A stretch of DNA of 64,000 bases, from positions 1,407,501 through 1,471,500 of the forward strand of contig NZ_CP049074.1 of NCBI RefSeq assembly GCF_013343295.1, given 5' to 3'. A model generated the notes under the pieces. The model had not been told where the DNA came from, did no database searches, and saw only the letters and a program-made list of their open reading frames with translations. Shown in pieces: positions 17,563-26,300 of this stretch. Each line of letters opens with the position of its first letter. The first letter of the stretch is position 1. Source of the DNA: Metallosphaera tengchongensis. GTDB lineage: Archaea; Thermoproteota; Thermoprotei_A; Sulfolobales; Sulfolobaceae. The position numbers and the translations under genes were made by a program.

Positions 17563-17691
17563 TTAAAGGTCAGCAACTGGAAATGCCAGTATCTTAAAGG
17601 TCTCAACGGATCTTTTCCTAACCCTCAGCTCTAGACTTGACCCAGTGCCTAACTCAAGTTCTAACTGATCTGGTTCCATTACTCCAGTCAT
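17563..17691 (-). CDS. 42-aa small ORF coupled to copA by ATGA overlap
   Basis: An ATG on the minus strand at 17691 overlaps the copA TGA stop (ATGA), and the frame runs 42 codons to TAA 17563-17565. The peptide starts MTGVMEPDQLELELG and ends in FPVADL; it has alternating hydrophobic and charged residues compatible with beta strands and no cysteine, so it is not a CopZ-type chaperone. The overlap is what one expects of a real last gene in the copM-copA operon. Chance remains possible at this length. Confidence 0.45.
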   Translation of the reverse strand: MTGVMEPDQLELELGTGSSLELRVRKRSVETFKILAFPVADL

Positions 17692-19928
17692 CACTGCACG
17701 AAGCTCCAGAGCGCTACACTAACGCTGTTCATGGCCATACCTAGGGCTGCGTACTCAGGGGGCAAGACCAGACCTAGAGAAGGGAAAAGTACTCCGGCCG
17801 AGATGGGGACGAGCACAGCGTTGTAAGCCAGCGCCCAGGCAATGTTTTCCTTTATCTTCCTTACGGTCCTCTTGGATCTCTCTAGTAACAACTTTAGCGA
17901 GAGGACGCTCGGTACAACCACGTCCCCTGCATATTTAGCTATGTCAGTACCCGATGAAACGGCCACCCCTATGTCAGCTTCCCTCAAGGAAAGGGCATCG
18001 TTGACTCCATCCCCTACGAAGCACACAACCCCTTCCCTTTTCAACTCCCTCACTAGCTCGACCTTGCCATCAGGGGACAGCCCTTTCCTAATCTCCACCC
18101 CTAGGTCTTGAGCTACCCTATCTGCGTAAACGCTGGAGTCTCCCGTTGCAATTATTACCCTATACTTCCTCTTCAACTCATCAACCAGTTCCTTAACTCC
18201 ATCCCTCAGTTTGTCCTCTAACCATATGTCCCCGGCCACCTTCCAGTCCACACAGACAGATACGTCCCCCTTCGGTTCACCATCACAATTCTTTGTGACC
18301 AACTCCTTCTTCCCAACTAGAACTTCTCTACCCTCTACCTTACCGTATACTCCCCCCTCCAGCTCAGTGAAGTCCTCAACCTTGAGCTTTTCACCGCTCA
18401 TGTTCGCGATCACCCTTCCTACCGGATGACTGCTTAACTTCTCCAGGGACGAAGCTAGCTCGATTGCCCCATCCTGGTATTCCCTAAACTCCCTCACGCT
18501 CATCTCCCCCTTGGTTAGAGTACCCGTCTTATCAAAGACTATCACTTTCACCTCCCTCAACTTTTGTAGGCTTTCTCCATTTCTCACCACGATGCCCTTT
18601 TTGAGCAACTTCCTTATCCCTACCATGACCGCCATTGGGGTCGCAAGGCCGAAACCACAGGGGCATGCGGAGGCTAGAATCGCTACAGCTATCAGTATCC
18701 CGAATGTCTCTGGCTGGTGGAGGAGTAGAACCCAGGCTAAGAAGGAGAAGATGGAGATAGCGATTATGACTGGGACGAAAATCGAGGATATCCTGTCGGC
18801 AATGGATTGAATTGGGAGCCTCACTGTCTCCGCCTCCTTAAGCGCCTGAACCACTTGCGAGATGTAGGTCCTCTCACCGCTCCTGGTAACGTAGACCTTT
18901 AGAAAACCTGAGGAGAGCACTGAGCCCCCAACTAACGGGTCTCCCTTCACCTTCTTTACGGGAAGGCTCTCCCCCGTGTAAATTGACTCGTCCACAAACC
19001 CCTCTCCCTCATCCACAACTCCGTCAGCTGGAACCACCTCTCCTGATTTCACCACTACTAGATCTCCTACCTTAAGCTTCCTGGAGTCCACGGTCTCTCC
19101 GCTCACTAACCTAGCTTTAGTGGACTGGAGGTTTAGGACCTCATCACTTGTCCTCTCCTTTATGTAGGCCTCCAGGGTCTTCCCAGCCAAGATGAAGGTT
19201 ATCAATAGCGAGGACGCGTCGAAGAAGTACCCTGAGTGGAGGTAAAACAGGGAGACTAAGCTGTAGGTCCAAGCTGTGAGCGACGATAGGGACACAAGGA
19301 CGTCCATGTTGGTGGTCCTGTTCTTGAGAGCCCTGTAGGCTCCCCTGTGGAACCTCATTCCAGAGAAGAACACCACAGGTAAGGAGAGGACTAGTTGAAG
19401 AAATGGGACTTGAATCAGGGTGAAGGGAGATATCAAAGCTCCAACGATTAACCTGAGCAACAGGTCCCTGAAGTCTCCAGACTTACCCATCTCTTCCCTT
19501 TCCAGCTCTAGGGGGTAGCCCCTCTCTTTCATCTTCTCAAGTACCGTCTCCGCTGAGGTAGTTAACGGGTTTATCTCGACTATAGCTATCCCAGAACTGG
19601 CGTTCACCTTCGCTGATATCACCCCGTCCATGCTCTCTAGGAGAGCTGTCAGTTTATGGGCCTCCTCCTCACTGACCTTCACCCTCGCTGTGAACTTCTG
19701 AGTAGCCACGTCGTACCCAGCGCTTCTGACTGCCTTCACTACGTCGCCTAATTTTCCCCCTTCTATGACTACCCTGGCGTTCCCGGAGGCTAGGTTGACG
19801 TTGGTCTCCTTTACTCCCTTAACGCTGGAAATTGCTTTACTTACAGTAATCTCGCACGTGGCGCAGTGCATCCCTAGGACTTTGATCTCTTCGCTCCTTA
19901 ACCTCAGGGACTTGGTCTCCCCGCTCAT
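17691..19928 (-). CDS. copA: copper-exporting P1B-type ATPase CopA
   Basis: A 745-residue heavy-metal P-type ATPase. One N-terminal HMA domain has the metal site MHCATC (Cys 22 and 25) and a second HMA-like region without Cys follows (residues ~78-140). The membrane CPC motif (ASACPCGFG), phosphorylation site DKTGT, SHPVG and GDGVND hinge are all present. The protein exports Cu(I), which protects an acidophile that lives with dissolved copper. The ATG overlaps the stop of the YHS protein gene (ATGA), and both lie divergent from the regulator gene copT, which is the usual Sulfolobales arrangement. Confidence 0.95.
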   Translation of the reverse strand: MSGETKSLRLRSEEIKVLGMHCATCEITVSKAISSVKGVKETNVNLASGNARVVIEGGKLGDVVKAVRSAGYDVATQKFTARVKVSEEEAHKLTALLESMDGVISAKVNASSGIAIVEINPLTTSAETVLEKMKERGYPLELEREEMGKSGDFRDLLLRLIVGALISPFTLIQVPFLQLVLSLPVVFFSGMRFHRGAYRALKNRTTNMDVLVSLSSLTAWTYSLVSLFYLHSGYFFDASSLLITFILAGKTLEAYIKERTSDEVLNLQSTKARLVSGETVDSRKLKVGDLVVVKSGEVVPADGVVDEGEGFVDESIYTGESLPVKKVKGDPLVGGSVLSSGFLKVYVTRSGERTYISQVVQALKEAETVRLPIQSIADRISSIFVPVIIAISIFSFLAWVLLLHQPETFGILIAVAILASACPCGFGLATPMAVMVGIRKLLKKGIVVRNGESLQKLREVKVIVFDKTGTLTKGEMSVREFREYQDGAIELASSLEKLSSHPVGRVIANMSGEKLKVEDFTELEGGVYGKVEGREVLVGKKELVTKNCDGEPKGDVSVCVDWKVAGDIWLEDKLRDGVKELVDELKRKYRVIIATGDSSVYADRVAQDLGVEIRKGLSPDGKVELVRELKREGVVCFVGDGVNDALSLREADIGVAVSSGTDIAKYAGDVVVPSVLSLKLLLERSKRTVRKIKENIAWALAYNAVLVPISAGVLFPSLGLVLPPEYAALGMAMNSVSVALWSFVQ

Positions 19929-20086
19929 GTAGGCATCCCTTTTGGTCCACCTTTCAGGTAGACCTCTGGGTCCTTATCGAAAGCGACCTTACAGTGATGA
20001 CTGCAGAAGTAATACACCTTTCCTTTATACATTGACTTAAACTTAGAGGTCTCTTTCACTTCCATACCGCAGACCGGATCCATCAT
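19925..20086 (-). CDS. copM: YHS/TRASH-like copper metallochaperone CopM
   Basis: A small YHS-domain protein with a DPVCGMEV start and a YYFCSHHCKVAFDKDP core giving three cysteines for metal binding. It should deliver copper to CopA, coded directly after it with an ATGA overlap. I choose ATG 20086 because the broken YHS gene at 56263-56390 aligns at that codon (ttgataa just before the ATG in both); ATG 20101 and GTG 20110 would lengthen it slightly. Divergent from copT across about 115 bases. Confidence 0.87.
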   Translation of the reverse strand: MMDPVCGMEVKETSKFKSMYKGKVYYFCSHHCKVAFDKDPEVYLKGGPKGMPT

Positions 20087-20201
20087 TTTTATCAAGTACA
20101 TATATCTCACTTGTAGTAAAAATACTCTGTGTTAATTCTGTACGTTGCCTCCCTTAGCTTTGAACAAATAGTTTTTCTTTCCGTAATTCATGAGTTAGGT
20201 A
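20087..20201. promoter_or_regulatory. copM-copT divergent promoter region
   Basis: A short AT-rich intergenic region that must carry both promoters. On the plus strand, tttgaacaaatag lies ~30-45 bases before the copT ATG. On the minus strand, the gtatttttac segment at 20116-20125 could be the copM TATA. CopT of Sulfolobales is known to bind its own divergent promoter and respond to copper; no exact operator was identified here. Confidence 0.5.
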
Positions 20202-20717
20202 ATGACAAATGAAAAAGAGATCACGGAGGTGGAGTACAAAGTGCTACAGCTTCTAAGGAAGAACTCCAGGAGGAGCGCGAGCGACATAGCGAAGGAGCTC
20301 AAGGTTAGCAGAGCCCTGGTCTCCAAGGTCATAAGGTCCTTGGAGGAAAAGGGAGTGAAGTACTGCGTCGAATACTACGAGAAGGATGAACTCGTAGCCT
20401 TCGCTTTGGTGAACTCATGCGAAGGGCTTGATGACTGTTTCAAGCTACTGGACGGAAGGTACATGGCGGTGATAAGGGGGAACTTGGAGGAGTTAAGTAA
20501 CGCGCTGAGCAAAATCGGGAGCACGCAATACTTCCTGGCTGTGGAGAAGGTAGGCAAGCCTAAACTCAAGAGGAGAGAACTCTCATGCGATTACTGCGGG
20601 GAGAAGATCCTAGGGGAGCCCTACGTTGTCAAGGCTGGGAGGAGGGTTTACTACGCCTGTTGCAAGAGTTGCAAGACCCAGTTAACCAAGAGGCTGAGGC
20701 TTAAGGAGACCACCTGA
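20202..20717 (+). CDS. copT: copper-responsive transcription regulator CopT
   Basis: The 171-residue protein has an N-terminal Lrp/AsnC-like winged helix ([20 protein letters not shown], then [18 protein letters not shown]) and a C-terminal TRASH domain with [13 protein letters not shown] and CCKSC cysteines for metal sensing. Between them is a region like the sensor part of archaeal Lrp proteins. It is divergent from copM-copA, which it is expected to regulate in response to copper. The whole arrangement matches the known copTMA locus. Confidence 0.93.
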
Positions 20718-20856: not shown

Positions 20857-20862
20857 ACTTTC
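20857..20862 (+). promoter_or_regulatory. ANTTTC-type hexamer upstream of the PolB2 operon
   Basis: ACTTTC at 20857 fits the ANTTTC hexamer reported upstream of UV-induced (TFB3-dependent) genes in Sulfolobus. It lies 48-53 bases before ATG 20910. A hexamer occurs by chance often, so this counts only together with the identity of the downstream genes, whose Sulfolobus counterparts include a UV-induced polymerase gene. Confidence 0.35.
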
Positions 20863-20909
20863 GATTATCTGTCTAAAGACTTATTCGTTTTGGTTTAGTA
20901 TTAAATACC

Positions 20910-21149
20910 ATGGGTAGAACTCAACCTTCCTTCACTAGATCGGTGGACGCGGAGCTGGAGAAGTTGCTAAGGCTGAGCAAGAGGGTTGGTTACCCATGTT
21001 TCCAGGAGGTAGTGCTTGAGGCTTCAAAGAGGGTGAGGGAATTTCAAAGTGCACTCTACGACGAGGTCACTGACCCACAGGAGATCCTCCTCCTAACTCT
21101 GATCTCTGTGATAGCTGAGGGGAGGTGTAATGGAAGGTTACGTAGTTGA
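20910..21149 (+). CDS. small helical protein of the PolB2 operon
   Basis: A 79-residue, mostly helical protein (ELEKLLRLSKRVGYPCFQEV, later DEVTDPQEILLLTLISVIAEG). I do not recognise a named domain; an N-terminal helix-turn-helix is possible. Its end overlaps the polymerase gene by 20 bases, so the two are translated together. A small gene in this place next to PolB2 is what I remember from other Sulfolobales, which suggests an accessory factor of the polymerase. Confidence 0.72.
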   Translation: MGRTQPSFTRSVDAELEKLLRLSKRVGYPCFQEVVLEASKRVREFQSALYDEVTDPQEILLLTLISVIAEGRCNGRLRS

Positions 21150-22824
21150 CGCCCTTCCCACTAGAGGCGGCGTGGTTCTAGTCCTGGACGGATTTAGGAA
21201 GGTCAAGGTCAACACTACCTTCCCGATCTACGTGATCACAGATAGCCCGGAGAGAATAGCTGAACACCCTTCAGTCTTGCACTATGAGCAGGAGGTCTGG
21301 AGGGACCTTGACGGTAAGGAGGTCGACCTCTACAGGTTCGAGCTGGAGGACATGGAAGCTTACAACTACATTAGGAGGAGGGTTGAGACAGTTAACGAGA
21401 TACCTACGGTGATGTCACAGGTCCTGCACAGGATTAACGCCTATCCCTTCAGGAAGGTCAGGGTAGGGAAAGGGGTGGAAATGTACCCTGAGGAGTTCCC
21501 TAAGGTATCCTTCGCTACCGTAGTCACTGAGGACTGGTACGGCCCATCGCCAAAGGGGAGGAGGTTCGTGGCGAACGTCAACGGGGAGAAGTTGCAAGGT
21601 CGGATCGATGACCTAGACCTGAAGGTGGACGTAGCTGAATGCTTCGGGATAGCCTGCCAAAAGGTTACTGCTTCGGTCAAAATAAGGAGGAAGAGGGCTC
21701 CGGTGTCCGTGAGGGGGATGATCGAGTGGTCCCTGGTTAGCAGGACCTTGATCAGGGAGCTGGAGGGCTCCACCATAGGAAAAGTGCTCACTACCAACGA
21801 GGCTTGGGTTGCCTTCTCTAGAAGGGTCCTTATCCCCAGGGTGGTTCCCAGGGTGGAGAAGATGAGGACCTTAGATGAAATAAGGGCAGTGGACAAAGGA
21901 GGATTGGTCCTCTTCCCCAGGGTAGGATGTTTTGACCAGGTGTCCCAGGTGGACTTCTCCTCTATGTACCCTTCCCTCATAGTGAAGTACAACATATCAG
22001 CTGAGACCGTGGACGTGTGCAACGACCTGGAGACTGAAATAGGCCACTCCATTTGCATGAGGGAGACCGGGATAGTCCCGGAAGCCCTGAGATGGTTAAT
22101 AAAGAGAAAGGAGGAGCTCAAGAGGGTAGATGAGGAGAGGGCTGAAGCCATAAAGTGGATCCTGGTAGCCTCGTTCGGTTACCTAGGGTACAGGAACTCC
22201 AAGTTCGGGAAGATCGAGGCCTACGAACTGGTCACATACTTCGCCAGGAAAACCCTGAGGGAGACCATGGTTCTCGCGAGGGAGTACGGGTTGGAGGTGC
22301 TTCACGGGATAATAGACTCCCTGATACTAAAGGGGGAGAGGGTTCAGGAGTTCCTGAGGTCAGCTGAGGAGATGACGGGTCTCAGGCTCAAGGAGGACAG
22401 GATGAAGTGGATCCTGCTCTTCCCCAGAAGGGATGGGAGACCGTACCCCATGAGGTATATGGGGAAGCTGGAGAGTGGTGAGGTGAAGGTTAAGGGACTG
22501 ATCAGGAGGAACTTGCCCAATGTGGTCAGGGTCTTCGTGGAGGAAGCTGTGGGACTGGCTGAGGGGGCAGAAAGTTGCCAAGACCTTGAGGAAATTACTA
22601 AGGACCTGAACCTGCTAGCGAAGAAGTATAGGGAGAGGATACTGAACGGGGATCCTAGGGACTACGTTATTTGGGTTAAGGGTAAACCTTTGATAAGAGG
22701 GGTCAGAGGGTTCTACGACCCCTCCAGAGGTTACAGGGGAAGGGACGTGTACTACTACTTGGACTACCTGGAAAGGGAGAGACAGGTGTTGATTGATGCT
22801 TATCACGGGTTTTCAGGCAATTGA
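21130..22824 (+). CDS. dpo2: family B DNA polymerase PolB2 (Dpo2 type)
   Basis: A 564-residue family B polymerase, much shorter than replicative PolB1. Motif A appears as VDFSSMYPSLIVKYN, motif B as ILVASFGYLGYRNSKFG, and motif C as HGIIDSLILKG instead of the usual YxDTDS, so one of the two catalytic acidic residues in motif C is replaced. No complete ExoI-III set was seen, so proofreading is probably absent. The family (PolB2) is known for altered catalytic motifs and for induction by UV in Sulfolobus, which points to DNA damage tolerance. It lies between two overlapping genes (20 bases before, 29 bases after), so all three form one operon. Confidence 0.9.
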   Translation: MEGYVVDALPTRGGVVLVLDGFRKVKVNTTFPIYVITDSPERIAEHPSVLHYEQEVWRDLDGKEVDLYRFELEDMEAYNYIRRRVETVNEIPTVMSQVLHRINAYPFRKVRVGKGVEMYPEEFPKVSFATVVTEDWYGPSPKGRRFVANVNGEKLQGRIDDLDLKVDVAECFGIACQKVTASVKIRRKRAPVSVRGMIEWSLVSRTLIRELEGSTIGKVLTTNEAWVAFSRRVLIPRVVPRVEKMRTLDEIRAVDKGGLVLFPRVGCFDQVSQVDFSSMYPSLIVKYNISAETVDVCNDLETEIGHSICMRETGIVPEALRWLIKRKEELKRVDEERAEAIKWILVASFGYLGYRNSKFGKIEAYELVTYFARKTLRETMVLAREYGLEVLHGIIDSLILKGERVQEFLRSAEEMTGLRLKEDRMKWILLFPRRDGRPYPMRYMGKLESGEVKVKGLIRRNLPNVVRVFVEEAVGLAEGAESCQDLEEITKDLNLLAKKYRERILNGDPRDYVIWVKGKPLIRGVRGFYDPSRGYRGRDVYYYLDYLERERQVLIDAYHGFSGN

Positions 22825-23359
22825 TAGGCTAGTTAGCGAGGACGAAGTAGTGGAGTTCTTCTCCACTGACAGGAACCTGCTCTACACCCTGTACCACAGG
22901 GCCATAGTCCTCTCGTCTCCCGTCAAGGTCATATTGGTCTCAGAAAGGGGTGGAATAGACCCATTGCTTATAGAGAGGTTCAGGAGGATATTTCAAAAAT
23001 ACGACGAAATATATATCAGAAGAGCGTTCAAGGTCGAGGACGTGAGACCTACCATTGAGGCCATGGGGGGAGAGTTCGTGTTGGTAGACCCGTACCACCA
23101 CAGGAAAAAATACACCGAAATAGTCTCCGGAATAAGGAGAGCGCAGGGGAGGAAGTTCATATTCAGCTTCATGGACAGGGAGAGGGAGGGGTCCGTCTTC
23201 GGTCTTCACACAGCCCACTCCTTGATTAAACTGGAGGGTACCGGGTCTGGGTTCAGAGCAAAGATATTGAAGAGCGTCAGTGTGGAGAACATTGAGATAC
23301 CCTTTGGGACCTGGGAAATATTCGGGAGGTCCGAGGAGGGATTGGTGAGATGGCTCTAA
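22796..23359 (+). CDS. RecA/RadA-like protein lacking Walker A, PolB2 operon
   Basis: A 187-residue protein that overlaps the polymerase end. It opens with ITGFQAIDRLV, like the ITEFxxLD start of RadA-type ATPases, then has two strand-helix units (KVILVSERGG; EFVLVDPYHH) and KFIFSFMDRE near the place of a Walker B or sensor strand. The GxxGxGKT loop is missing, so ATP binding in the usual manner is unlikely. The order small protein - polymerase - RecA-like resembles in logic the bacterial ImuA/ImuB/DnaE2 damage cassette. ATG 22796 is preferred over TTG 22793. The RecA-fold call is from pattern and moderately sure. Confidence 0.7.
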   Translation: MLITGFQAIDRLVSEDEVVEFFSTDRNLLYTLYHRAIVLSSPVKVILVSERGGIDPLLIERFRRIFQKYDEIYIRRAFKVEDVRPTIEAMGGEFVLVDPYHHRKKYTEIVSGIRRAQGRKFIFSFMDREREGSVFGLHTAHSLIKLEGTGSGFRAKILKSVSVENIEIPFGTWEIFGRSEEGLVRWL

Positions 23360-25647: not shown

Positions 25648-26007
25648 TCACGATACCTTGATGTTCTGCTTTATCTTATTTAGAGTGTCTTGGGGTATCG
25701 AGGTCATGTTATGAGATGTCTTAGCATGTATGGAGAGCTCATGTAAGAGCTCATCTTCGGAGGAGGCATTCATTATTTCAAATCCGCAGTTCATTCCCAC
25801 GCTCGCACAACTGAAGGAATATTTCCCAGACTTCTTTATGTTACTCTTTATCTTCTCCACCATATCTGCTGGGATTGAGGTCAATCCATGGCTTGCCTTG
25901 GCGTGCACTTTCAGCATCTCCAGAAGCTCATCCTCAGTCCCTGCGTTAGTTATTTCAAATCCGCAGTTCATTCCCACGCTCGCACAACTGAAGGAATATT
26001 TTGTCAT
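25648..26007 (-). CDS. tandem DUF1059 protein
   Basis: The 119-residue protein consists of two DUF1059 domains (residues 1-59 and 60-119), each with YSFSCASVGMNCGFEI and a later SIP-x-D/E stretch. Each domain has two cysteines (SCAS and MNCGF) and one HAK(A/T)SH pair of histidines that could bind metal. The two halves share a perfect 52-base repeat, evidence for a recent internal duplication. It is divergent from a single-domain copy at 26100. Function of DUF1059 is unknown. Confidence 0.82.
   Translation of the reverse strand: MTKYSFSCASVGMNCGFEITNAGTEDELLEMLKVHAKASHGLTSIPADMVEKIKSNIKKSGKYSFSCASVGMNCGFEIMNASSEDELLHELSIHAKTSHNMTSIPQDTLNKIKQNIKVS
25773..26001. repeat. 52-bp perfect direct repeat inside the tandem DUF1059 gene
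   Basis: Bases 25773-25824 are repeated exactly at 25950-26001, 177 bases (59 codons) apart and in frame. The repeat encodes the SFSCASVGMNCGFEI part of each domain on the minus strand. The rest of the two domains differs, so the identity reflects recent gene conversion or strong constraint on this part. Confidence 0.9.
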
Positions 26008-26099
26008 TAATATTATTTAGGTTAGAACAATATAAGGATTTCGAAAAAGAAATCTCAGGAAGATTTTTATATATTCAACTAAATTATAGATTAGAGATT

Positions 26100-26300
26100 A
26101 TGGTGTTCGGTTTAGGGAAGAAGAAGTTTGAGTTCTCATGTCAAAGTATAGGTATGAACTGCGGTTTCGCCGTGAAGAAAGCGTCCTCGGAGGAGGAACT
26201 ATTGGAAATTTTAAAGGTTCACGCCAAGGTAGCCCATAACCTGTCTAATATACCTGAAGACACTTTAAATAAGATCAAGGAAAACATAAAGAAAGTCTAG
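26100..26300 (+). CDS. single-domain DUF1059 protein
   Basis: From ATG 26100 the 66-residue product is MVFGLGKKKF followed by one DUF1059 domain with FSCQSIGMNCGFAV, a HAKVAH pair and SNIPEDTLNKI. The frame is open upstream to 26001, but that part has no sense as protein, and TATA-like tttttatatattcaac at 26064-26079 fits a leaderless start at 26100. It is divergent from the tandem copy and resembles its second half most. Confidence 0.8.
   Translation: MVFGLGKKKFEFSCQSIGMNCGFAVKKASSEEELLEILKVHAKVAHNLSNIPEDTLNKIKENIKKV

Follow-up and report, generated by a model that had tools for sequence, protein, structure and literature searches.

Three overlapping genes of Metallosphaera tengchongensis, encoding a small helical protein, a family B DNA polymerase with an altered catalytic motif and a RecA-like protein without a P-loop, raise the question of what such a polymerase does and how its two companions belong with it. 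We analysed the genes within a window of 64,000 nucleotides (contig NZ_CP049074.1, positions 1,407,501 to 1,471,500), the genome consisting of one contig of 2,176,897 bases. RadA is encoded once in the same genome, alongside two further family B polymerases and one Y-family polymerase, and the cassette therefore adds to the usual set. All three genes lie on one strand, PPB2 and PolB2 overlapping by 20 bases (21130-21149) and PolB2 and iRadA by 29 bases (22796-22824), so that the ORF coordinates bear out the overlaps claimed in an earlier note made from the DNA letters. Because the frames overlap, the three proteins are probably made from one mRNA and co-translated. An alternative start for iRadA, a TTG at 22793, lies one codon before the ATG at 22796, and RNA folding around the PolB2 start gave nothing remarkable.

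Upstream of the cassette, at 17691-20717, is a probable copper-handling cluster, whose members are a P-type ATPase, a small TRASH-like protein that accompanies it and a regulator with a TRASH domain; the TRASH domain was confirmed by profile search, and the remaining names come from reading the sequences. At 25648-26300, two small proteins encoded side by side but on opposite strands have the repeat FSC-x-S-x-GMNCGF in common.

Table 1 Genes of the cassette and promoter features, in window coordinates
Feature	Position	Strand	Description
ANTTTC hexamer (DDRE, Orc1-2 binding element), here ACTTTC	20857..20862	+	-53 from first ATG; 48-53 bases upstream
Extended element ACTTTCGATTATCTGTCT	20857..20874	+	ANTTTC, then CTCTC-like box 11-13 bases on
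PPB2 (arCOG07300)	20910..21149	+	79 aa, ATG start; three-helix protein opening with MGRT (ORF, AlphaFold2)
PolB2/Dpo2	21130..22824	+	564 aa, ATG start; B-family DNA polymerase, motif C HGIIDS
iRadA	22796..23359	+	187 aa from ATG; RecA/RadA-family relative without Walker A, GLVRWL clamp-motif-like C-terminal tail

Relation to published systems

The grouping of PolB2 with arCOG07300 and an inactivated RadA in one operon was described in 2013-2014 (PMC4104785). The partners have since been named PPB2 and iRadA, and a PolB2-PPB2-iRadA "mutasome" was modelled in 2025 as a heteropentamer of three PPB2, one PolB2 and one iRadA (PMC11791011), the physical complex being published as a computed model only. 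The earlier note had called both partners uncharacterised, which is incorrect given these names and this model; its central proposal, a damage-tolerance polymerase of archaea with two partners, one of them an inactivated RecA relative, agrees with the published work. It had also made joint induction after DNA damage a point on which the idea could fail. Published data from Saccharolobus/Sulfolobus islandicus are favourable here, NQO inducing SiRe_0614, SiRe_0615 and SiRe_0616 by 21.3-, 25.6- and 22.3-fold, respectively (PMC10470591, Table 1). SiRe_0614 and SiRe_0615 are annotated there as Dpo2N and Dpo2C (PMC10470591); read from the operon order, SiRe_0614 would be PPB2 and SiRe_0616 would be iRadA.

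The S. islandicus operon (SiRe_0614-0616) has the same three genes in the same order, including a polymerase with the first motif C Asp replaced, a PPB2 with an MGRT start and a RecA-like third gene lacking Walker A, and the damage-response promoter element is found in relatives. It differs from the window operon in that sequence identity is moderate, overlaps of exactly 20 and 29 bases are a feature of the window copy, and the window operon adjoins copper-handling genes and a permease gene. We consider it very probable that the cassette is the Metallosphaera copy of the PolB2 mutasome operon of damage tolerance, working by the mechanism proposed for that system.

In the proposed mechanism, Orc1-2 would activate transcription from ANTTTC after DNA damage, as has been shown in S. 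islandicus and presumably applies here. Three PPB2, one PolB2 and one iRadA would then assemble, and the published model predicts that the MGRT arm of one PPB2 sits in the PolB2/iRadA cleft near DNA, with PolB2 gripping iRadA as adjacent RadA units do in a filament. PolB2, which would work without proofreading, is expected to extend mismatched or lesion-containing primer ends, as shown for the S. islandicus enzyme; the outcome would be damage tolerance, with mutations as its cost. iRadA would have a structural role instead of acting as an ATPase, and PCNA may be the docking partner of its C-terminal GLxxW tail.

The closest analogy drawn in PMC11791011 is Escherichia coli Pol V (UmuD'2-UmuC-RecA), which likewise combines an error-prone polymerase, a small multimeric subunit whose arm lies close to the active site, a RecA-family partner and damage induction (PMC11791011). 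The Pol V polymerase, however, is of family Y rather than family B, UmuD' is unrelated to PPB2, and RecA is an active ATPase, unlike iRadA. The earlier note had instead compared the cassette with bacterial ImuA-ImuB-DnaE2 while stating that the families differ; the difference in families stands, but as the closest analogy the Imu system gives way to Pol V. Both are three-part damage-induced cassettes with a RecA-like member, a likeness of logic only, since the polymerase families are others and no homologous accessory proteins were found. Counterparts by descent would share just this logic of polymerase, RecA-like protein and small accessory protein under damage induction, but the family assignments contradict such an origin: the polymerase is of family B, the cassette holds neither a Y-family ImuB-like nor a C-family DnaE2-like protein, and the third protein has no ImuA family match. 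Descent of the cassette from ImuA-ImuB-DnaE2 was rejected, its probability being close to nil.

The polymerase and its altered motif C

The family B profile PF00136 (DNA_pol_B) matches PolB2 (E 9.2e-11) over residues 255-383, the palm/fingers region only, and alignment places the family B polymerase 5mdn as the nearest solved relative. Motif A reads VDFSSMYPS, with D275 kept, and is preceded by a D(K/R) motif (D255-K256) of which D255 is invariant in an eight-sequence alignment. Motif C reads LHGIIDSL, in which I394 replaces the first Asp and the second, D396, is retained; motif A retention and HGIIDSL in place of YxDTDS, both claimed previously, are thus seen in the sequence. PolB1 of the same genome carries VYGDTDSL at this position. 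Among PolB2 relatives the first Asp is missing in 29/29, and all 29 carry [ILV][ILV]DS.

This family-wide replacement of the first Asp would suit a catalytically dead polymerase, the complex then being a structural or regulatory factor, for example in replication initiation. Inactivation was argued in PMC4104785, which noted orc neighbours and, in 2014, drew on the link of the operon to orc genes in proposing a replication-initiation role. The S. islandicus enzyme Dpo2, however, also lacks the first motif C Asp, and it is an active polymerase in vitro with no detectable exonuclease (PMC8764526) and is needed for damage-induced mutagenesis in that organism (PMC8764526, PMC10470591). Because Dpo2 polymerizes (PMC8764526), the altered motif C of the window enzyme is, by analogy, no sign of inactivity and does not imply an inactive polymerase; a reading of inactivity from motif C alone was rejected on this basis. 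The retained Asp of motif A and second Asp of motif C also speak for catalysis, and the immediate neighbours of the window operon, named by reading their sequences, look like copper-handling genes and a permease rather than orc. A dead polymerase is therefore very unlikely, and an active damage-tolerance polymerase remains our preferred reading. Against this, phenotypes of polB2 deletion are reported to differ among species and treatments (PMC8100216, PMC7785828).

A PolB2 protein query matches 133 plasmid records, many of them haloarchaeal, and in one of them (L086) the polymerase is immediately preceded by a gene of the Cdc6/Cdc18 family and two small hypothetical ones.

PPB2, iRadA and probable RecA ancestry

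The earlier note had proposed structure prediction for both small proteins, and this succeeded for one of them. AlphaFold2 modelled the single chain of the 79-aa PPB2 as three helices (residues 6-26, 29-49 and 56-74; mean pLDDT 86.5), for which a fold search returned no significant match, but gave a poor model of the 187-aa iRadA (mean pLDDT 43.2) from an alignment of the window protein and four relatives. The N-terminus of PPB2 is MGRTQPSF, and the MGRT start is present in all PPB2 proteins of the Sulfolobaceae genomes compared (29/29).

iRadA has no N-terminal RadA domain and begins at the RadA core position. The absence of a P-loop noted earlier was upheld, GxxGxGK[ST] (Walker A) being found nowhere in the 187 residues. 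All of the 28 iRadA proteins compared terminate in a GL/GI-x-x-W/Y tail, the broken frame of G013 having been left out; in that genome iRadA (L021) is split over two reading frames, by either a frameshift or a sequencing error.

Direct comparisons of the window iRadA would by themselves fit an unrelated alpha/beta protein. No Pfam or NCBIfam family matched, and hhalign profile comparison with the RadA of the same genome scored no better than shuffled sequences. Foldseek with the poor model listed RadA and Rad51 chains among its weak matches, none significant, and a second alignment of this model ranked common Rossmann-like folds, again with no significant match. Since the model is poor and significant fold matches were absent, it was not counted as evidence of a RecA fold, and for the same reason RecA ancestry is argued here only through intermediates. 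Relatives that the operon encodes in other families align strongly with iRadA (hhalign 99.8%, E 3e-30). Two of these have weak matches in different halves: L081 to RecA over residues 15-126 (E 0.0016 against PDB sequences and 5e-4 for NCBIfam RecA), and L083, in the C-terminal half, to RadB (E 0.0022). In addition, the S. islandicus ortholog, as modelled with AlphaFold, can be superposed on RadA over 161 residues at 2.4 A (PMC11791011). These relatives and the published model make a good but indirect case for RecA ancestry, and an unrelated protein is highly improbable. The earlier description of the third protein as RecA-like is thus sustained by way of the intermediates, but not by the direct RadA comparison or by fold searches with its own model.

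Promoter element, distribution and probable transfer of the operon

The ANTTTC hexamer is the element bound by Orc1-2 (PMC9738581), and the copy that the earlier note had reported upstream of the cassette is present as ACTTTC (Table 1). By itself, the hexamer is about as frequent in the window as expected (173 copies versus 174.6), but its position is conserved: at -65 to -28, it occurs in 24 of 33 upstream regions of the first gene, against a mean of 3.2 and a maximum of 9 in 2000 shuffles, a count that carries no strict p-value since the sequences are related. In PPB2 promoters across genera, a CTCTC-like box is usual 11-13 bases past ANTTTC. Among the 35 regions having the hexamer, 27 have such a box after it (shuffled following bases: mean 2.6, maximum 9), an excess that is somewhat overstated, since hexamers were picked in a way that favours the box and the regions are related to one another. 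In its strict form, the extended pattern ANTTTCRNTNNNCTNTCT has five sites in the genome and its reversed control one; by inspection, the expected spacing to a gene start occurs only at the PolB2 promoter, and the pattern therefore defines no regulon.

Of 31 Sulfolobaceae genomes, 29 carry the complete trio of PolB2, PPB2 and iRadA, and the remaining two (G018 and G030) have none of the three. iRadA lies beside PolB2 in every one of the 29, on the opposite strand in three, and in 25 PPB2 immediately precedes PolB2. The earlier note had named a lack of conserved linkage in other genomes as grounds for abandoning its proposal; the linkage is there, and the joint presence and absence of the three genes supports the modelled complex. 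In four Metallosphaera genomes (G002-G005, loci L045-L048), PPB2 is detached from polB2-iradA and located elsewhere in the genome, where it retains MGRT and an ANTTTC at -50 or -52. The polB2 genes of these genomes also have an ANTTTC upstream, but farther off and mostly lacking the second box, and at such a distance it may be a chance occurrence.

The window PolB2 is 71% identical to PolB2 of genomes of another genus and about 60% identical to that of its own genus, whereas for PolB1 the identities are 75-82% within the genus and 62% with the other one; trees agree with these identities. In AU tests, a clade of the genus was rejected for PolB2 (p 5e-7) as well as for iRadA (p 0.001); the testing came after the tree had been seen, with the tested group set by taxonomy. 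In genus-mates, the surroundings of polB2 did not contain the flanking genes seen in the window, the operon occupying a different locus. These comparisons point to acquisition of the operon of this genome from another genus, a horizontal replacement. PolB2 and iRadA appear to have been transferred together, probably along with PPB2, for which the evidence consists of identities, the AU tests covering the other two genes. Because the genus clade also excludes a second member, G001, more than one transfer may have taken place. We see an even chance that the Metallosphaera operon split, with PPB2 gaining its own damage-responsive promoter, that a whole, unsplit operon from a foreign genus replaced it here, and that the element is ANTTTC plus a CTCTC box 11-13 bases on, longer than the published hexamer.

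The operon is already known, real but ordinary apart from the signs of sideways acquisition, and as a system it adds little, since publications already cover the operon, how it is induced and what its architecture is likely to be. What may be new is the off-genus operon at a different locus, the detached PPB2 in four genus-mates, and the CTCTC box after ANTTTC. The added value is comparative: the three genes come and go as a set and two of them, probably all three, moved together, while the detached PPB2 genes still carry the MGRT arm and a damage-response element. Both observations support the modelled complex and provide natural test cases for it.
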